Positions 6,501 through 23,537 of a DNA stretch of 64,000 bases are shown in pieces. The notes beneath the pieces were generated by a model. That model saw nothing but the letters and a program-made list of their open reading frames with translations. It had not been told where the DNA came from and searched no databases. The stretch is taken from positions 1-64,000 of the forward strand of contig JALSJN010000032.1 of NCBI GenBank assembly GCA_026989335.1, in the 5' to 3' direction. The translations under genes were made by a program, and so were the position numbers. Source of the DNA: Thiotrichaceae bacterium (GTDB taxonomy: Bacteria > Pseudomonadota > Gammaproteobacteria > Thiotrichales > Thiotrichaceae). The stretch's first letter is position 1. Each line of letters opens with the position of its first letter.

Positions 6501-6743
6501 AAACGTTCTCTTTTCTTGAGTAGGTGTTTTTTTATCAAAAATAATAGCACAACTTATTGTTTGTTACTCATCGGTGTTCGAGGAGCATTTATTCTACGCT
6601 TTTTCAGGTTCAGTCATCTGATCTTTTGCTGAGCCCATCCTGTAATTGGTGAAAAATTAATCACAATCAGATAAGCTTCCTGTTCAAGGATCATTATTGT
6701 CTTTTATAAAAAGTGATCTGATTAAATTTTTTAAGGTTTTTAT

Positions 6744-7913
6744 ATGAAAATTGCTATTGCTGGCACGGGCTATGTAGGCCTCTCAAACGCGATGTTACTG
6801 TCGCAAAACCATCAGGTTACAGCGCTTGATGTTATTCCAGAAAAAGTTGAGATGCTTAATAATAAGCAGTCACCTATTGCGGATGTTGAAATCGAAGATT
6901 TTCTTGCGAATAAAGCATTAAATTTTACGGCTACTTTAGATAAGTATGAGGCTTATGAAGGGGCTGAGTTTATTGTTATCGCTACACCGACTGATTATGA
7001 TACTGAACATAACCACTTTAACACCGATACGGTTGAGGCTGTTATTAAAGATGTCATGGCGATTAACCCCGATGCGGTAATGGTGATTAAATCGACTGTT
7101 CCTGTTGGTTATACCGCAGAAATTAAAGCTAAGTTTGGCACTGATAATATTATTTTTTCGCCTGAGTTTTTACGTGAAGGTCATGCGCTTTATGATAATT
7201 TATATCCTTCGCGTATTATCGTTGGTGAGCGTTCAGAGCGTGCTGAAAAGTTTGCTAATTTATTAGTCGAGGGTGCGATTAAAGAAGATATTGCGGTACT
7301 TTTTGTGGATTCTACTGAAGCTGAAGCGGTTAAACTTTTCTCAAATACCTACCTAGCGATGCGAGTGGCTTACTTTAATGAGCTAGACACCTATGCGCAG
7401 GTTCATGGGCTTAATACGAAACAGATTATAGAAGGTGTTGGTTTAGACCCGCGAATTGGTGATCACTATAATAATCCATCATTTGGTTATGGTGGTTATT
7501 GCTTGCCAAAAGATACCAAACAGCTACGAGCTAACTATAAAGATGTACCTAGTAATTTGATTAATGCGATTGTTGAATCAAATACAACGCGTAAAGATTT
7601 TATTGCTGATAGGATTATTCAACAACAGCCCAAAATTGTGGGTGTTTATCGTTTAATTATGAAAAGTGGATCTGATAATTTTAGAGCATCTTCGATTCAA
7701 GGCATTATGAAGCGTGTAAAGGCGAAAGGTATTGAGGTTGTCGTTTTTGAGCCAGAGTTAAAAGATGATGAATTTTTTAAGTCTCGTGTAATCCGTGATC
7801 TTAATGAGTTTAAGGCGATGTCAGATATCATTGTCGCTAATCGTTTATCCGATGATATTACTGATGTGCGAGATAAAGTAGTAACCAGTGATTTATTTGG
7901 TCGAGATAGTTAG
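6744..7913 (+). CDS. ugd: UDP-glucose 6-dehydrogenase
   Basis: '[23 protein letters not shown]', '[23 protein letters not shown]', '[18 protein letters not shown]'. Confidence 0.95.
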
Positions 7914-7958
7914 AGGGTGGCTCAGTCGGGCTAAATAATAAAAATTAGAGGTTTATAA

Positions 7959-8966
7959 ATGAAGGTTTTAGTTACAGGTGCGGCAGGCTTTATTGGTTCT
8001 GCGCTATCCATTCGTTTGTTAGAACGTGGTGATGAGGTTGTGGGAATTGACAATCATAACGATTACTATGATCAAGATTTAAAAGAGGCGCGTCTTGCAC
8101 GCCACGCTGTCCACCCTAACTATACGCATATTCGTATGAACCTTGAAGATCGTGAAGGCATGGCTGAGTTATTTAAAACGCAGCAGTTTGAAGGTGTTGT
8201 TAACCTCGCTGCGCAAGCAGGGGTTCGATATTCATTGGAAAACCCTTTAGCTTATATTGATACTAATTTGGTTGGTTTTGGGCATATTTTAGAAGGTTGT
8301 CGTCACAATAAAGTCGGTCATTTGGTCTATGCTTCATCAAGCTCGGTTTATGGTTCTAATACTAAAATGCCATTCTCAACGCATGATAACGTCAATCACC
8401 CTGTTAGTTTGTATGCAGCAACTAAAAAAGCCAATGAGTTAATGTCGCATACATATAGTCATTTATATGATTTACCAACAACCGGTTTACGTTTCTTTAC
8501 TGTTTACGGCCCGTGGGATCGTCCTGATATGGCGCTACAGAAGTTTACTCGCCGTATACTTCGTGGTGACGAAATTCAAATTTATAATTATGGAAAGCAT
8601 CGCCGAGACTTTACTTATATCGATGATATTGTTGAAGGTGTGATTCGCATTCTTGATCGACCAGCAATGGGTAACCCTGACTGGAGTGGTGATGCGCCTG
8701 ATTCGGCTACCAGTAAAGCGCCTTGGCGTATTTATAACATTGGAAACAATAATCCTGTCGAGCTATTAGATTATATTGATGCCTTGGAAGAATCTTTAGG
8801 TGTTGAAGTGAAGAAGGAATTACTGCCGCTACAGCCTGGCGATGTACCCGATACCTATGCAGATGTTGATGATTTGGTCAGCGAGTTTGGCTATAAGCCA
8901 TCAATGTCAGTGAAGGAAGGGGTTAAGAACTTTGCAGATTGGTATAAGGAATACCATAACGTTTAG
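7959..8966 (+). CDS. NAD-dependent epimerase, UDP-glucuronate 4-epimerase-like
   Basis: '[38 protein letters not shown]', '[43 protein letters not shown]', '[12 protein letters not shown]'; adjacent to ugd. Confidence 0.92.
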
Positions 8967-8984
8967 GCTGTAAATAGATAAATA

Positions 8985-9142
8985 GAGACCTTTGCAGGAA
9001 TCGGATGACGAGTAAAAATGGCTGAAATTCCACTGATTTTCGTTGGAAAACTTGCTAATAACTCGTTATTAGCTTCATTTTCTGCCTCAATCAGTGAAAT
9101 TTCATCCGGTTTTTCTTTCGCGACAAACTAGTGCAAAGGTCC
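8985..9142. repeat. MITE-like repeat, copy A (full length, ~158 bp)
   Basis: Termini GAGACCTTTGCA...TGCAAAGGTCC inverted; central palindrome GCTAATAACTCGTTATTAGC; same layout as the copies at 45344 and 62320. Confidence 0.85.
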
Positions 9143-9180
9143 CCAATAAAAAGCCAGCATTTAGCTGGCTTTTTATTGGG
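9143..9180 (-). terminator. Bidirectional terminator for trxA
   Basis: CCAATAAAAAGCCAGC-ATTTA-GCTGGCTTTTTATTGG perfect inverted repeat with T-run. Confidence 0.85.
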
Positions 9181-9188
9181 TTATTCAT

Positions 9189-9509
9189 TTATATGTTTTG
9201 ATCTAAAAATGCCGTCAACTGTGATTTATTCAAAGCACCAACTTTAGTCGCTTCTACTTCGCCATTTTTAAATAGCATTAAGGTAGGAATCCCGCGAATG
9301 CCGTATTTAGGCGGTGTATCACCGTTATCATCAATATTTAATTTGCCGACAATGACTTTGCCTTCATATTCTGTGGCAATTTCTTCTAAAATTGGGGCGA
9401 TTGATTTACACGGGCCACACCATTCTGCCCAGTAATCTACTAGTACAGGTGTGTCGTTTTTGATAACGTCTTCTTCAAATGTTGCGTCGGTTAGTGTCAC
9501 TATGCTCAC
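9189..9509 (-). CDS. trxA: Thioredoxin
   Basis: '[25 protein letters not shown]', '[16 protein letters not shown]'. Confidence 0.97.
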
Positions 9510-9568
9510 GATATGCTTCTCCAGCTTGGTTGATGGTAAATGTTATTATCAGGTTGAAATGAAATAAT

Positions 9569-10738
9569 TCAAGCGAATAATGCGCTTATTTCTAAGCGTT
9601 CAATAAACCAATATAAAGCAATCATAGAAATCATTAAAGAAAGCGGATTCGTGATACGTGTTTTGTACCAAGGTTTGCCTTTAAACCAAAGGCCTAGCAA
9701 TAAAAAAGCGCTAAGAATAACCGTTAGTTGACCAAGCTCAACGCCGATATTAAAGCTAATAAGTGCAGTTCCAAAGGCGTAGTCGGGTAGGCCAAAGTCA
9801 GCAAGCACACTGGCAAAACCCAGACCATGTAATAAGCCGAAGGCGAAGACTAAAAATAAGCGCCAGTTGTGAAGGCGCTTTGCAAATATATTCTCGATGC
9901 CAATATAAGCAATAGAAAGCGCTATTAAAGGCTCTACAATAACCGAAGGCAGATTAATAATGCCATTCATGGCAAGCCCTAGCGTAATAGTGTGTGCTAC
10001 CGTAAACATGGTAATTTGCCAGAGTAATGGCTTCAATGCGGTAGAAAATAGAAATAAACCCAGAATAAATAAAATATGGTCGATACCTTTTGGTAGGATA
10101 TGTTCAAATCCCAATACAATGTAGTTAAGTACTGTCTTATAGAAAGGCTTGCGGGCAACAACCTCAGTTAAAGAAAGTGCTTCACTCGATTGGTTGTTTT
10201 TTAACCATTGCCACTCAGACCAGTGGTATTTTTGATTGGTTTTATCTACTTGGCGTAAGCGTACTGCGTTATCACCAAAGGTCATTGGATAAAACCACGT
10301 TACAGAGTTTGCGTATAAGTCCACTTTACCGGATAGTTTTATAACGCTAATACGAGGAACTTTTGTGTAACCAGCTTCAGGGATGGTCACTTGCTTTACT
10401 TTTAGTTGGATTGTCTTTTTATTATCATTATCATTAAGTTTTATCGTCTTGAGAAATTGTTTCTCAAAGGCGTCAAATTTTTTTGATAAAACGTTCGGTT
10501 GCATTTTCCTTAATAAATCATATTTTGCGGCGTTGGGGGAGTCCTTAGTATTTTTGTACCTCCCATCTATTTCAGTTAATAATGCCTCAATACTGGCACG
10601 AATTTCTATATCTATGACTCCTTGCCTGTTCACCGTAATTTCAACAAGAGCGGGCTTAACTACATCTGCAAAAGCTTGTGTTGATAAAAAAAATAAGACG
10701 AGTAAAAAGAGTTTTTTAACTGCTGAAAATAAAGGCAT
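9569..10738 (-). CDS. HupE/UreJ-family membrane protein
   Basis: Signal peptide MPLFSAVKKLFLLVLFFLSTQAFA; C-terminal 'VLGFEHILPKGIDHILFILGLFLFS...FTVAHTITLGLA...FGLLHGLGFASVL...FNIGVELGQL' is HupE/UreJ-like. Start moved to the internal Met before the signal peptide. Confidence 0.8.
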   Translation of the reverse strand: MPLFSAVKKLFLLVLFFLSTQAFADVVKPALVEITVNRQGVIDIEIRASIEALLTEIDGRYKNTKDSPNAAKYDLLRKMQPNVLSKKFDAFEKQFLKTIKLNDNDNKKTIQLKVKQVTIPEAGYTKVPRISVIKLSGKVDLYANSVTWFYPMTFGDNAVRLRQVDKTNQKYHWSEWQWLKNNQSSEALSLTEVVARKPFYKTVLNYIVLGFEHILPKGIDHILFILGLFLFSTALKPLLWQITMFTVAHTITLGLAMNGIINLPSVIVEPLIALSIAYIGIENIFAKRLHNWRLFLVFAFGLLHGLGFASVLADFGLPDYAFGTALISFNIGVELGQLTVILSAFLLLGLWFKGKPWYKTRITNPLSLMISMIALYWFIERLEISALFA

Positions 10739-16785: not shown

Positions 16786-17739
16786 CTAGGGCTTAAAACG
16801 ATCTAAATCATTCGGAAAACTAACTGCACCGTGGTAATTGTTTTTAATGAGTCTTAGTGTTTCAGCTTCGAGATTGATGCTGCGCGCCATTAAATGCGTG
16901 AGTAAAAGATTTTTAACGTTAGCACGTTTGGCAATTTTTCCAATCGTTGTTGGTGTCATGTGCAGCAGGGCGGCTACACCTGTAGCATCTTCTGGGATAG
17001 CATTGTGCGCTACAAAAATATCGGTATTCTTAGCAAACTCAGGCATAGCGCCGAGTCGTCCACTCATATCACCAGAAAATGTAATGGAGCAACCTGCGAG
17101 CTCAACCCGATAACCTTGTGAAGGAAACGGCCCGTGGTGGGTTGATACTGTTTTCACGCGAATATTATTTTTGTTGTAGATAGTTTTGATCGTTAAATCA
17201 CTGTATGACCATTCGATATTTGCCACTTTAATTTTATAAGCACCGCGGGCTTCATTATCTAAAACATTCCCCAAATAAGGGTACATGCCTGCTTCACTGC
17301 CAATGGCTCGTTCGACAAATTGCTCCGCAGATGCTACAAATTTTGTTCCCGTTGGACCATAAACAAACAATGGTTTGGAGCGTTTGGTAAAAAAGGCACC
17401 TTTGATATAAGCAGGAAAGTCACTGCTGTGATCTACATGAAAATGGCTAAATAAAAATAAATCCACATCTTCAAAACTGGCTTTGCTCTGTTTAAAACGT
17501 TGCAAGCTACCTGCACCTGCATCAACTATCACACGGGCTTTATTATCCAGCCAGATAAGGTAGCCTGTAGAGGCTTGATCATCTAATAGTTCAGGGCCAC
17601 GAGAGCCCAGTATTTGGAGTTGTACTCGATTTGATTGGCATTTTGAAGGAATCACCTGAGTGGATGCGCTGAGAGCTGGGCTGGGTAAAAAAACAGAAGT
17701 AAACAACATTGCGAATGAAGAAGGTAGAAACAGATTCAT
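16786..17739 (-). CDS. Secreted MBL-fold metallo-hydrolase (RNase Z/arylsulfatase-like)
   Basis: 'FLFSHFHVDHSSDFPAYIKG', 'ITFSGDMSG', 'LLLTHLMAR'; N-terminal signal sequence. Confidence 0.85.
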   Translation of the reverse strand: MNLFLPSSFAMLFTSVFLPSPALSASTQVIPSKCQSNRVQLQILGSRGPELLDDQASTGYLIWLDNKARVIVDAGAGSLQRFKQSKASFEDVDLFLFSHFHVDHSSDFPAYIKGAFFTKRSKPLFVYGPTGTKFVASAEQFVERAIGSEAGMYPYLGNVLDNEARGAYKIKVANIEWSYSDLTIKTIYNKNNIRVKTVSTHHGPFPSQGYRVELAGCSITFSGDMSGRLGAMPEFAKNTDIFVAHNAIPEDATGVAALLHMTPTTIGKIAKRANVKNLLLTHLMARSINLEAETLRLIKNNYHGAVSFPNDLDRFKP

Positions 17740-18198
17740 TTATTTTGCCTTCTTTAAGACTAAAGTAACCTGCTTAATTTCTTTTGTTTGCAGATTAATT
17801 TCAGCCGCTTTATGCGATAAGCCATGCACCGTATCTTTGGCAATTACACGTATCGTTTTAATATCAGTGGGAATTTTCACACCTGATAAGTTACGTGTAA
17901 AAGGTTGTTCATTCACATGTGGATGGTACAAGGTACGTGTTCCAAATATTTTATTGTCTGCACCTATCACTTGCCATTCATTGGCATAATGATCCCAGCC
18001 TTTATCATCGTGCTTTAACGTTACTGCAAAAGTCCACGTTTTATCATTTTGTTGGTGAATCTTCACATCAACAACTTCAACTTCATTGGCATTAACTGTT
18101 GTTACATTAGCAGTAGTTAACAGAAGTGCCGAAAAGAGTAGAGCAATTGTTTTTTGTGGGAGGTGTAGGTGTTGAAATAGTTTCTTAACCATCGTCAA
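17740..18198 (-). CDS. Hypothetical secreted protein
   Basis: Signal peptide ending near 'TTVNANEVE'; start adjacent to MBL gene on the same strand; family not recognised. Confidence 0.6.
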   Translation of the reverse strand: MTMVKKLFQHLHLPQKTIALLFSALLLTTANVTTVNANEVEVVDVKIHQQNDKTWTFAVTLKHDDKGWDHYANEWQVIGADNKIFGTRTLYHPHVNEQPFTRNLSGVKIPTDIKTIRVIAKDTVHGLSHKAAEINLQTKEIKQVTLVLKKAK

Positions 18199-18254
18199 AG
18201 ATTCCTGTCATGTTAATATAGGCATAACATAACCATTACGAGTGATAAATACAA

Positions 18255-19436
18255 ATGGATTCAACGGTTACAAAAACGGTAAAAAAGTTGCGTAAGTTTT
18301 TAACGACACATCTTAGTAATAGTTTAGAGAAACTGGTACTAGAGTTGCCCCCAATTTTGAATAATCCCGATAAATTAAATGATCATTTAAGTAAAGCAAT
18401 TAATAAATTGCCCTATTGTAAATACATCTATGTGTTGGATGTAAAGGGGATACAAATTAGCGCTACCGTCTCGCATGAGGAGAAAAATACTTATTCAATG
18501 GGGCGTGATCGATCGCCACGACCTTATATGAAAAACTTATTTAAACCGCGTGAAGGCGAGGATTTTGAGCTATCCAAGGCTTATATAACAAAAAACACCA
18601 AGCGGCCCTCCGTAACAGGAATTCAATTAATTCGTGATCAGCAGGGTAACCGTCTGGGTTTTTTAGGCGTAGATTATGATTTAAGAGAGCTTCCTCGCGA
18701 TGACACAATGTACGAAGAACCACGCCAATGGAGGCAGATTAAAGGTGATCCTGCAATACGCAGTGGCTTGTTTTTACAGCAACGCGCTGAAAGTCAAATG
18801 GATAAAAAGCTCAGTGATGTGATGACGATACTTGAAGAGCTGATGCTTGAGCATGGCGTGTATCACTGCCAAGTTCATTATTCTAGTAGCCGAGTGACGA
18901 TCTGGCATGTGGATGACCCGTATACCTACCGTATCTTAACCATGGATGAGTTATCGGATTCTGAAATTTGTTTGGCATACCCGCAGCGCCCATATTTTGA
19001 GAGAAATATTGTTCCTAAAAAAGATATTTGTAATGTATTTAAACAATTTAGTGCGTTACGTTTTGCGGATGAAACTGTTTATTTGCGTTCGGGTTCTTTA
19101 AATTTGGTTAATGGTTTTACGGGCTTAAATTTTTCCTGTGATGGTACACACTACTTAACTTATGATGAGTTTTTAAGTCGTGGTTTAGAATTTTGGTTTG
19201 GTGCAGATACTGAGTATGAAGAAGCTGAGAAAAAACTGAATATGACAGACCTTGATGAACTGTTAGAAAAAGTTGCACAACGTGGATGCTTGGAAGTGAA
19301 TCAAATATTGGCTCAGTTGGATGCTGGTAAAACACCAGAACTTCTGTCTGAATTGACGAGCGATGAACAAGAATATATCCATCAAGAATTGGCATCAGTA
19401 ATGGCTATTTATGAGGGTGGGGTTTGTTCGATTTAA
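18255..19436 (+). CDS. Soluble PDC/Cache sensor-domain-like protein
   Basis: 'NKLPYCKYIYVLDVKGIQISATVS...RDRSPRPYMKNLF...YITKNTKRPSVTGIQLIRDQQGNRLGFLGVDYDLRELP' Cache-like; no obvious TM segment or HK/GGDEF output domain. Confidence 0.6.
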   Translation: MDSTVTKTVKKLRKFLTTHLSNSLEKLVLELPPILNNPDKLNDHLSKAINKLPYCKYIYVLDVKGIQISATVSHEEKNTYSMGRDRSPRPYMKNLFKPREGEDFELSKAYITKNTKRPSVTGIQLIRDQQGNRLGFLGVDYDLRELPRDDTMYEEPRQWRQIKGDPAIRSGLFLQQRAESQMDKKLSDVMTILEELMLEHGVYHCQVHYSSSRVTIWHVDDPYTYRILTMDELSDSEICLAYPQRPYFERNIVPKKDICNVFKQFSALRFADETVYLRSGSLNLVNGFTGLNFSCDGTHYLTYDEFLSRGLEFWFGADTEYEEAEKKLNMTDLDELLEKVAQRGCLEVNQILAQLDAGKTPELLSELTSDEQEYIHQELASVMAIYEGGVCSI

Positions 19437-19449
19437 TAGGACAAGGCTT
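19251..19449. repeat. Direct repeat DR1, copy 1 (199 bp)
   Basis: Near-identical (2 mismatches by eye, no indels) to 22232..22430; covers the 3' end of the Cache-like gene plus a few bp after its stop. Confidence 0.95.
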
Positions 19450-19518
19450 ATACTTGACATTATTTTTTCGCGTTATTATTAATAGGTCGATTAATTCAAC
19501 TCATGGAAGAGATAGATA

Positions 19519-19707
19519 ATGATCACCAAAAAACAGCTAACTTCTCAGTTTTATAGCGTAGCTCAAGGCTCTAAAAACAGAGCTGCATATTTTGCAAATA
19601 ATGAACAATACATGGTGAAATACTGGGAAGACCCTGCAATGACACCTATAGATAGATATGTAAGAGGAAATTACTCAAATAGTTCTAATAATAAATGGTG
19701 TGGTTAA
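19519..19707 (+). CDS. Small hypothetical protein (62 aa)
   Basis: Purine-rich sequence upstream of ATG (GGAAGAGATAGATA); no recognised family. Confidence 0.35.
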   Translation: MITKKQLTSQFYSVAQGSKNRAAYFANNEQYMVKYWEDPAMTPIDRYVRGNYSNSSNNKWCG

Positions 19708-19727
19708 CAATGTTTATCTAAAGGATA

Positions 19728-19910
19728 ATGCGCACATTTATTTTCAGTTGTATATGTTTTTTTCTAGTGTCTTGTGAACAACACACTTTCTTGTTGAAAA
19801 AAAGTAATAATATTCATATACACCCTGCTAACCCTTGTAGACAAGAAGTAACTCATGATCATCCTTATGTTAATACCAAGCATGATCATGCATATCACCC
19901 TTGCAAGTAA
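19728..19910 (+). CDS. Small putative His-rich lipoprotein (60 aa)
   Basis: 'MRTFIFSCICFFLVSCEQHTF' lipobox-like; His-rich C-terminus. Confidence 0.35.
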   Translation: MRTFIFSCICFFLVSCEQHTFLLKKSNNIHIHPANPCRQEVTHDHPYVNTKHDHAYHPCK

Positions 19911-19986
19911 GTTCTAGTGGAAATGGTGTAATCGTGGATATCCATCCAAAATCGGTATAAAAACAGCGATAAACGGTTGATCAACC

Positions 19987-21255
19987 ATGAATCAAATTAA
20001 CCACGAAGGACACGAAGGACACGAAGGACACGAAGGACACGAAGGACACGAAGGACACGAAGGACACGAAGCGCACGAAGCGCACGAAGGGAAACATCCA
20101 AATCTTTGTGTTCTCTGTGTCCTTCGTGGCGAGAACAATGTTTTCAGCTACGATGCCAACGGCAACCGCCTGAATCTCACCGAAAACAAGGACAGCAACG
20201 AAGAAATCCAGACAATCTACAGCATACTGGGAAACTCAAACCGCCTGACCAAAGTCGCCGACACCGACTACCAGTACGACAACAACGGCAATATCATCAA
20301 CGGCGGCGAGCATAGCTACACCTACGATGCCAGAAACCGTTTGGTCAGCATCGACAACGGTACAAGCACAAGCTATCTCTACAACGCCAATAATATGCGG
20401 GTTAAGAAAACCACCGTCAATGAAACGACAAACTACGGCTGGGACAACGACCGAATATTCGCCGAATACGATGCCAGCGGTAATCCCATACAGGAAACCG
20501 TTTACTTTGGTAGTACACCCATCGCACTGCTCAAAGACGGTAACATCTACCGTATCTTTGCCGATCAGATTGATACACCGCGAGTCATCACCGATCACAC
20601 AAACAACACACTCTGGGCGTGGGACAGCAAACCGTTTGGTGAAAGCCAGCCTGATGAAGATGCGGATAAGGACAGTACTGTACTAAGCTATAATCTTCGA
20701 TTCCCTGGGCAGTATTATGATGTAGAGACGCAGAAGCACTACAACTTCAATAGAGATTATAATCCTGTTACTGGACGATATATTCAGAGTGACCCGATTG
20801 GGTTGGATGGGGGGATGAATGGATATGGCTATGTACTAGAAAATCCATTAATCACTTCTGATTATAAAGGTCTGAAAGGACTTCGTATTACAAACCCAAA
20901 TACAGCTTCGTATTCAAACCTAGACTATGCAATTGATAAATGGATGGGTTGGGCATGCTCTCAATGTTCAATGCAACTCTTTCGTACTGTACGCTCTCAA
21001 ATAGATTATTATCAACGTACTTCTTCAATTAATGCCACATGGTATTTTATGTTATATATTAAACTGGCAGATAAACCTGCGTGGGCAGGACGACCAAACT
21101 GCGCTATAGGAACAAAAATAAACTTTGCTACATCATATTATAGCTATAATATTGCAGCACCTTACATACCACAAAACGGTTATGGGTATCCACTAGCAGC
21201 ATACAAAAAAGGACAATTCAATGGCACTAATAGATATGGGCCAGTGCCTTACTAA
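19987..21255 (+). CDS. 5'-truncated Rhs repeat-associated core protein with variable C-terminal tip; N-terminus supplied by a (CACGAAGGA)n repeat
   Basis: 'FSYDANGNRLNLTENK', 'YDNNGNIINGGEHSYTYDARNRLVSID', 'YIFADQIDTPRVIT'-type YD repeats and Rhs core 'FPGQYYDVETQKHYNFNRDYNPVTGRYIQSDPIGLDGGMNGYGYVLENPL'; unrelated ~125 aa tip. Confidence 0.8.
   Translation: MNQINHEGHEGHEGHEGHEGHEGHEGHEAHEAHEGKHPNLCVLCVLRGENNVFSYDANGNRLNLTENKDSNEEIQTIYSILGNSNRLTKVADTDYQYDNNGNIINGGEHSYTYDARNRLVSIDNGTSTSYLYNANNMRVKKTTVNETTNYGWDNDRIFAEYDASGNPIQETVYFGSTPIALLKDGNIYRIFADQIDTPRVITDHTNNTLWAWDSKPFGESQPDEDADKDSTVLSYNLRFPGQYYDVETQKHYNFNRDYNPVTGRYIQSDPIGLDGGMNGYGYVLENPLITSDYKGLKGLRITNPNTASYSNLDYAIDKWMGWACSQCSMQLFRTVRSQIDYYQRTSSINATWYFMLYIKLADKPAWAGRPNCAIGTKINFATSYYSYNIAAPYIPQNGYGYPLAAYKKGQFNGTNRYGPVPY
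20002..20091 (+). repeat. Tandem 9-bp repeat, 10 units (7x CACGAAGGA, 2x CACGAAGCG, 1x CACGAAGGG)
   Basis: Read directly. A downstream inverted counterpart at 20105..20131 (TTTGTGTTCTCTGTGTCCTTCGTGGCG) makes the whole unit palindrome-like. Confidence 0.95.
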
Positions 21256-21697
21256 AATAGTTCTAATGTTAGGAGTCTCAATAATTGCTTCTTTATCTGG
21301 AATATTTTTTCTTCTTCTCATCGAAGAGTACGATAAGTTAAACACTGCGACCTCAACGTTGATTCTTCTAAGTAATGGAGATATTGAAGCAACAGTAAAT
21401 ACAGCTATTATTTTTGTAAGATTACTGTTCACAACATTTGTCGGGGTTTTTCTAATCATTTGTCTGGAAATTACGAAAGCTGGTAGGGTTCTACATTGGC
21501 TAGCTATAGGTTTTATATTAGCAACCCTTGTTAATTTCATTAGTCCGCTACCATCATATTTTGGTTCTTTGTCTGAAACTAAAGGTGCGGGAGTACTTGG
21601 TCAATATTTACTTCATAATTTTATATATATTGCATTTCCCGTTTTTGCATCATCTGTTTTCGGAAATTGGTTGTATTTTAGAATAAAGAACAAATAA
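21221..21697 (+). CDS. Hypothetical multi-TM protein, candidate immunity protein for the Rhs tip
   Basis: Overlaps the end of the Rhs ORF; several hydrophobic helices; same strand. Confidence 0.5.
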   Translation: MALIDMGQCLTKIVLMLGVSIIASLSGIFFLLLIEEYDKLNTATSTLILLSNGDIEATVNTAIIFVRLLFTTFVGVFLIICLEITKAGRVLHWLAIGFILATLVNFISPLPSYFGSLSETKGAGVLGQYLLHNFIYIAFPVFASSVFGNWLYFRIKNK

Positions 21698-21738
21698 AAG
21701 CGCAACCGGGGACAGTCATCAAATAGTGGTAATTTAAA

Positions 21739-22116
21739 ATGGATAAAGACAAGTATAAAGTAGTGGTGGTAGCGGAACGTATCTTAATAAACAAGATTAC
21801 TAATGCTCAGGTTTCAGTAAAATTACATCAACCTCTGCAGGAGAATGATGATTGGAGTTGCGCCTTTTCTATAGATGGCAAAATAGAAAAAGTTGTTGGT
21901 ATAGATTCTATGCAAGCACTCATATTGGCATTAGATGTAATAAGAACACAATTAAATGAATATATTAATGAGCTATATTGGCTTGATGATCTTGAGTTCT
22001 TAGGTTTTCCATTATTTGTACCTATGTATTTCCCTGATAAAGAAAGGAAAAAAATTGAGCTTTTGGTGGATAAAGAAAGCAATAACTTATTACGAATCAC
22101 CGAGGACGATCGATGA
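21739..22116 (+). CDS. DUF6968-like small protein, candidate immunity protein
   Basis: 'VVGIDSMQALILALDVIRTQLNEYINELYWLDDLEFLGFPLFVPMYF' resembles DUF6968-type proteins found near polymorphic toxins (from memory); same strand as the Rhs gene. Confidence 0.5.
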   Translation: MDKDKYKVVVVAERILINKITNAQVSVKLHQPLQENDDWSCAFSIDGKIEKVVGIDSMQALILALDVIRTQLNEYINELYWLDDLEFLGFPLFVPMYFPDKERKKIELLVDKESNNLLRITEDDR

Positions 22117-22136
22117 ACAAGAATATATTCATCAAG
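22105..22136. repeat. Short third partial copy of the DR1 duplicated sequence
   Basis: GACGATCGATGAACAAGAATATATTCATCAAG vs GACGAGCGATGAACAAGAATATATCCATCAAG within DR1. Confidence 0.75.
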
Positions 22137-22231
22137 CATACAGCTAATAGACGGCAGATAAAAATTATTTCTTGGGGCGCGTAGAGGGTGTTCAAAACTC
22201 TGCAAAATCTTAAGGACAGCCATAATTTTAT

Positions 22232-22430
22232 CTTGATGAACTGTTAGAAAAAGTTGCACAACGTGGATGCTTGGAAGTGAATCAAATATTGGCTCAGTTG
22301 GATGCTGGTAAAACACCAGAACTACTATCTGAATTGACGAGCGATGAACAAGAATATATCCATCAAGAATTGGCATCAGTAATGGCTATTTATGAGGGTG
22401 GGGTTTGTTCGATTTAATAGGACAAGGCTT
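22232..22430. repeat. Direct repeat DR1, copy 2 (199 bp)
   Basis: Matches 19251..19449; an orphan 3' end of the Cache-like gene. Confidence 0.95.
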
Positions 22431-22622
22431 GTGTCACTCTCTCAAATACTGTTAAACTCTCGATCATGCAAATTCTTCATCTTATAATTTCACTGAAACT
22501 CTGGCTGATTATTCAATCACACACAGCCAGCGAATTATTGTAAGTTAAATTTTTCTAACGCTGTGGGAATCTCCCTCAGCAAGCTTGATTCCCACTGTTT
22601 ATTATTAAATCAAGGAATCAAA

Positions 22623-23537
22623 ATGCCAATCACGACCAATCAAAAAGACTTTCGATTAGGAATATTCTTTGCTATCGCAGGCACGGCTTTATTTTCCCTA
22701 AAATCCATTTTTATTAAACTCGCTTTTCAAGAGGGGGTAGATGCAACCACGTTTCTTGCGTTACGCATGATCATTGCGTTTCCTTTTTATGTGTTGGTGC
22801 TTCTTTATGCGATTAAAACACGTCCAGAAAAAGCTGCTTCATTTACTAAGAAAGATGGCTTAGCTATTTTTGGTCTGGGGTTTTTAGGCTATTATTTGGC
22901 GTCCTATCTGGACTTTGAAGGGCTATCCTATATTTCGGCACAGCTAGAGCGCTTAACTTTATTTACTTATCCTATTATGGTGGCGCTATTAAGTTGGTTC
23001 TTTTTTAAAGAAAAAATAACACTCAAAGTATTGGCTTCATTAGTGGTGAGTTATATTGGGGTGAGCTTTCTATTTTTTAATGAGTCGCCGGCAAGAACCT
23101 CACTGGTTGATGATAATGTCGCGTTAGGAACAGCCTTGGTGGCTATGGCGGCATTCAGCTTTTCTATTTATGTGATTTTCAGTAAAGCCTTTATTTCTCG
23201 CTTAGGTAGTTTGATTTTTACCAGTGTGGCGATGTCATCCTCATTGGTCTTTATACTCATCCATTTTTTTGTGATACATACAATGAGTGACTTATATGTC
23301 TCGACAAGGTTGTGGAGTTTAGCCATTTTGTTAGCGATATTTAGTACATTAATCCCCAGTTTTTTCATCAGCGAGGCAATCAACCGCATTGGTGCGACAC
23401 GTACTAGTATAATGGGAACACTGGGGCCCGTTATGACTATATTGCTAGCTGTGAACCTATTGGGTGAGCCTTTTGGCTGGGCACAAATTGTTGGACTATT
23501 GTTGGTTTTATTCGGTGTTAGTTTATTGCGTAAATAG
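22623..23537 (+). CDS. EamA/DMT-family transporter
   Basis: 'AIAGTALFSLKSIFIKLAFQEGVDATTFLALRMIIAFPFYVLVLL', repeated EamA halves; start moved to MPITTNQ preceded by AAGGAATC. Confidence 0.88.
   Translation: MPITTNQKDFRLGIFFAIAGTALFSLKSIFIKLAFQEGVDATTFLALRMIIAFPFYVLVLLYAIKTRPEKAASFTKKDGLAIFGLGFLGYYLASYLDFEGLSYISAQLERLTLFTYPIMVALLSWFFFKEKITLKVLASLVVSYIGVSFLFFNESPARTSLVDDNVALGTALVAMAAFSFSIYVIFSKAFISRLGSLIFTSVAMSSSLVFILIHFFVIHTMSDLYVSTRLWSLAILLAIFSTLIPSFFISEAINRIGATRTSIMGTLGPVMTILLAVNLLGEPFGWAQIVGLLLVLFGVSLLRK

Follow-up and report, generated by a model that had tools for sequence, protein, structure and literature searches.

Organization of the Locus

The window analyzed here, the whole stretch of 64,000 nucleotides, contains a gene for a Cache-like protein that is separated from its native neighbor, an EamA-type transporter gene, by a cargo of 2.8 kb bracketed by two copies of the end of the first gene. 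The source genome is a 2.46-Mb draft in 86 contigs (94.9% complete, 4.2% estimated contamination), and its nearest relative is genome G001, in which the corresponding locus is L024. The framework of the locus consists of the following features:

18255..19436, + strand: intact gene for a Cache-like protein of 393 aa, the target of the insertion, with a 97% identical orthologue in G001
19251..19449, + strand: copy 1 of the repeat, formed by the 3' end of the intact gene and 13 bp after its stop, with the ancestral base at both mismatch sites
19450..22231, + strand: cargo (insert), missing from the empty-site relatives
22105..22139, + strand: a third copy of the gene end, incomplete and more diverged, matching 19355-19389 at 32/35 positions
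22232..22430, + strand: copy 2 of the repeat, start-less in frame and abutting native downstream DNA
22563..23537, + strand: EamA-type transporter gene, the native downstream neighbor, in the same place in L024 and in L025 of genome G006

The Cache-like protein gives only a weak, sub-threshold match to dCache_1 (E 0.016). Its duplicated C-terminal part of 61 residues (window 19242-19436) occurs in other genera of the family as a stand-alone protein of about 66–79 aa, encoded near a hemB-like gene or right after a shorter Cache-like ORF (L080-L082, L084, and L085), and the fused Cache-like gene looks like a case of fission or fusion of two genes.

The Repeated Gene End

The direct repeat is 199 nt long and 99% identical between 19251-19449 and 22232-22430 (within-genome match E about 1e-97), and it spans the last 61 codons of the Cache-like gene, the stop codon and 13 bp beyond. 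The first-pass annotation had described this repeat with two mismatches and had placed it in a protein-coding gene, and its coordinates, its mismatch count and the nature of the duplicated end are all exact. The two mismatches (19343/22324, T>A; 19346/22327, G>A) both fall in third codon positions and are silent. Copy 1 belongs to the intact gene, while the frame of copy 2 is without a start codon ahead of the domain core and is preceded closely by a TAA at 22223-22225; from copy 2, the native sequence GGCTTGTGTC continues. Comparison of the flanks finds no homology past the 199 bp at either junction.

Near the right end of the cargo lies the third, 35-bp piece of the same gene end. Its origin by chance can be rejected, as it scores 26, whereas 60 first-order Markov simulations of the cargo did not exceed 12. 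It is more diverged than copy 2 (3/35 against 2/199, p 0.025), and at all three sites informative against G001 it carries the bases of its own species. This combination suggests that the gene end was probably copied here before the 199-bp event, and the own-species bases indicate that the cargo already lay beside its own species' gene end at an earlier time. Given this third piece, the gene end thus appears, from the sequence, to have been copied into the locus more than once.

Content of the Cargo

The cargo is made up of the following features, the listing of ORFs agreeing with the earlier description of two small ORFs, a truncated rhs gene and two downstream genes:

19450..19521, + strand: Rhs-type leader, with TTGACA at 19454-19459
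19519..19707, + strand: 62-aa ORF immediately behind the leader, probably what remains of a gene
19728..19910, + strand: lipoprotein-like 60-aa ORF that has a His-rich end similar to modules of other family members
19936..19983, + strand: incomplete small inverted-repeat (MITE-like) element of a dispersed type
19987..21255, + strand: Rhs fragment, in which a 9-bp tandem repeat is in frame with the end of the Rhs core and a C-terminal tip
21221..21697, + strand: hydrophobic ORF of 158 aa that overlaps the end of rhs, a candidate immunity gene by position
21739..22116, + strand: DUF6968 protein (PF22302, E 3.7e-15), a candidate immunity gene by position
22214..22231, + strand: first 18 bp of the end of a REP-transposase-type element, cut at the copy 2 junction

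The left end of the cargo lies four bases ahead of the -35-like TTGACA of the leader. A counterpart of the leader is present in genome G002 (84% over 74 bp), and in G006 and G001 weaker matches are situated directly 5' of rhs genes that are full-length, the parts common to these upstream regions being TTGACAT, a T-rich stretch and AACTCATGG. The reading of the leader as a promoter is drawn from this conservation upstream of rhs genes and not from the consensus promoter scan, in which its TTGACA was not listed. In G002, an rhs leader (L076 4102-4436, contig C98) precedes an ORF of 88 aa that has a HEAAH motif of zincin-like type and lacks an Rhs core; the occurrence of an rhs leader before a short non-core ORF both there and here suggests Rhs operons that have been internally deleted. 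The 62-aa ORF behind the leader has no family match in Pfam/NCBIfam.

Small inverted-repeat elements with GGACANCCATAA ends are found across the genus (e.g., L075 6775-6845 and L073 4600-5890), and pieces of them are included in the cargo; elements with GGACANCCATAA ends also flank a gene for a Y1-type (REP-associated) transposase in G006. A second kind of repeat occupies window 19984-20129, where an array of the 9-bp tandem repeat CACGAAGGA and its inverted partner form a long hairpin-like repeat. Dispersed copies of the CACGAAGGA array also occur in G001 and in further relatives; in the cargo it is read in frame as HEGHEGHEG at the beginning of the Rhs ORF, the called start of which falls inside it.

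The Rhs fragment matches the profiles RHS_repeat (E 2e-8) and TIGR03696 (core, E 7e-20) and ends in a C-terminal tip of about 128 aa that belongs to no known family; it is the sole RHS-repeat match in the genome. The hydrophobic 158-aa ORF has no family match in Pfam/NCBIfam, and among the genes downstream of the Rhs fragment no known immunity family was matched in the same libraries. Toxin and immunity functions of the cargo genes are putative, being inferred from position only. At the right end, the cut 18-bp piece recalls the arrangement in G006, where a REP-transposase-type element is placed directly downstream of an rhs gene and its next gene. Judged by its sequence features, the cargo is the remnant of an Rhs operon. 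In the nearest relative, the rhs gene is full-length (L072, contig C67 of G001) and is carried on a 16-kb contig that also has a ParA-like gene and a pair resembling a toxin-antitoxin system, and it may reside on a plasmid or island.

Relatives of the Cargo

At the DNA level, the cargo has no relative in genomes of the genus beyond the Rhs core and the small repeats. The leader and the DUF6968 gene were also searched across 63 genomes of the family, which contained no relatives of DUF6968, and when the cargo ORFs were searched against proteins of the whole class, only weak matches were obtained. No relatives of DUF6968 or the toxin tip were found on plasmids, and none of DUF6968, the toxin tip or the leader on viral contigs; in a library of solved structures, neither the toxin tip nor DUF6968 had a convincing relative. 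A phage or plasmid origin was considered, and only the generic Rhs core was matched. Copying from another rhs locus of the same genome is likewise unsupported, the genome having no second RHS match and no further long stretch of DNA that matches the cargo.

The Empty Site and the Age of the Duplication

Two congeneric Thiotrichaceae genomes (L024 and L025) possess the gene end in single copy and without cargo, the Cache-like gene leading straight into the EamA gene. In the alignment with L024, window 16787-19443 corresponds to 6565-9189 and window 22232-23537 to 8997-10312; the two window stretches overlap in the coordinates of L024, which therefore has one copy of the gene end. L025 of G006 likewise has the EamA gene after the Cache-like gene and lacks the cargo. 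Relatives with a single 199-bp copy and an empty site, which the first-pass annotation had proposed to look for, thus exist, and together with the position of copy 2 on the native flank they support its view of an insertion accompanied by duplication of the gene's 3' end.

The polarity of the event can also be read. Copy 1 agrees with L024 at both sites at which copies 1 and 2 differ, and since copy 1 is ancestral and copy 2 adjoins the native flank, the gene was left intact and the duplicate was placed on the far side of the insert. Copy 1 differs from L024 at 6/186 coding positions and from copy 2 at 2/199, which probably places the duplication after the divergence from G001, barring later homogenization of the copies. 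It is unlikely that the duplication predates the cargo. None of the seven relatives checked (0/7) has a second copy of the gene end. Repeated occupation of the site by related elements was not found, and some relatives have other downstream genes without a gene-end repeat. In L056 (contig C4 of G005), for example, the Cache-like gene is followed by what read as a DNA cytosine methyltransferase, a GIY-YIG protein and a Vsr-like protein, and the downstream flank accordingly varies among species.

Origin of the Insertion

The insert is placed between direct repeats of its target without any loss of target sequence, which is the arrangement of an insertion-duplication. No integrase or transposase gene is present in or adjoining the cargo (ORFs, Pfam/NCBIfam searches of the cargo and reading of the flanking ORFs), as the first-pass annotation had stated of integrases. 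The explanation that we favor, at about even odds (roughly 0.5), is an integrase-free insertion-duplication in which a circularized cargo carrying the gene end was inserted by a single crossover. The donor would have been another strain of the same species, with the cargo already in place behind the Cache-like gene. A fragment reaching from 199 bp inside that gene to 22231 would have come free and circularized, with 22231|22232 as the illegitimate junction of circle closure, and one homologous crossover between the circle and the single gene end of an empty-site chromosome would then have yielded the intact gene, the cargo, a start-less second copy and the native flank. The observed arrangement is exactly what would result if a circle of cargo plus 199 bp of the gene end underwent a single crossover with a chromosome having one gene end.

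A bacterial precedent for such events is provided by an E. coli conjugation study, in which most of the recombinants that were expected to be illegitimate proved to be duplications; the target duplications in 14 sequenced clones measured 109–950 bp and were ascribed to recircularized molecules with a degraded homologous arm that had integrated by a single crossover (PMC3240628). The silent third-position mismatches are weakly suggestive of copy 2 having come from a working allele of another strain, there being only two of them. ComEC is present in the source genome and Ku is absent, a combination that fits, weakly as ComEC is common, DNA uptake with homologous recombination. The absence of Ku also speaks against the crossover, as circularization requires end joining; no donor strain or circle came to light, and the crossover does not explain the history of the 35-bp piece in full.

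Identical junctions would be produced by replication-based template switching, in which the polymerase would leave the gene end, copy foreign or ectopic cargo and re-enter 199 bp upstream, with need of neither a circle nor a donor copy of the gene end. This route is possible but doubtful. In its favor, the joins at both cargo ends are non-homologous, and serial switching typically leaves a second short patch such as that of the gene end within the cargo; however, the greater divergence of that patch (3/35 against 2/199, p 0.025) indicates that the two were probably separate events, and the bacterial precedent (PMC3240628) concerns crossover.

The first-pass annotation had left a choice between an integration that regenerates the 3' end of its target gene and recombination-mediated capture of a cassette. 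Capture is the better fit, and the gene-end fragment inside the cargo argues for it. Site-specific integration would here have involved an element with a replacement 3' end, of which only the cargo was left after loss of the integrase gene. The intact gene, the displaced 3' end on the far side and the empty site in relatives are what such an element would leave, but it is an unlikely source given that there is no integrase in or beside the cargo, that similar cargo is lacking in the searched family genomes (no genus DNA relative beyond the Rhs core and small repeats; DUF6968 in 0/63), that none of seven relatives has the gene-end repeat, and that the cargo ends are an rhs leader and the cut end of a transposase-type element rather than the ends of an element.

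An assembly artifact, whereby the repeat let the assembler splice in cargo from another place, strain or circle, is improbable to a similar degree. The genome is a metagenome-assembled draft with many contigs and some estimated contamination, and the repeat is about as long as one short read, but its copies differ at two bases and are both flanked by unique DNA, the cargo is found nowhere else in the assembly, and copy 2 is joined on its left without homology, a junction for which real spanning reads would be required. It is very unlikely, in turn, that toxin-immunity cassettes of these bacteria carry the 3' end of a neighboring host gene as a homologous landing strip that is reused between strains without an integrase, the 35-bp piece being the trace of an earlier round. 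Target duplication by a transposon is rejected, as the repeat is 199 bp long and the cargo ends are not paired as inverted repeats.

Significance and Comparison With Known Systems

The single-crossover reading describes what looks like ordinary integrase-free recombination, an event of a known kind and not a new type of mobile element. Having an empty site and a polarity that can be read, the locus is of value as a clean example from nature of how a competition module can come to lie behind an intact gene with no dedicated integrase involved. If strains of the same species were found to have other cargos behind the same repeat, this would count as evidence for the spread of Rhs modules by plain homology.

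Regeneration of a protein-coding gene's 3' end is known from integrative elements such as e14 at icd and SXT at prfC. As in these cases, the gene's 3' end is present here on both sides of the insert, the gene is intact and empty sites exist; unlike them, no integrase, phage or conjugation genes or recurrent use of the site were found. In content, the cargo resembles the orphan rhs-CT/immunity modules of Salmonella, which likewise consist of a truncated rhs with the core end and C-terminal tip, are followed by candidate immunity genes and are missing the export part (PMC3967940); unlike those modules, it is not downstream of a main rhs gene, the genome having no other RHS-repeat match.

With regard to mechanism, homology-facilitated illegitimate recombination during transformation also gives one homologous and one illegitimate junction without an integrase, as here, but it usually deletes recipient DNA of similar size, whereas the present event is a duplication in which none was lost (PMC3240628). 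Campbell-type insertion by a single crossover comes closest. The E. coli cases were laboratory-selected and had duplications of 109–950 bp, whereas here the repeat is 199 bp and the circle and donor are ones that we infer; in both, the insert is bounded by direct repeats of the target, the length of which is set by the homologous arm, and no integrase takes part (PMC3240628).
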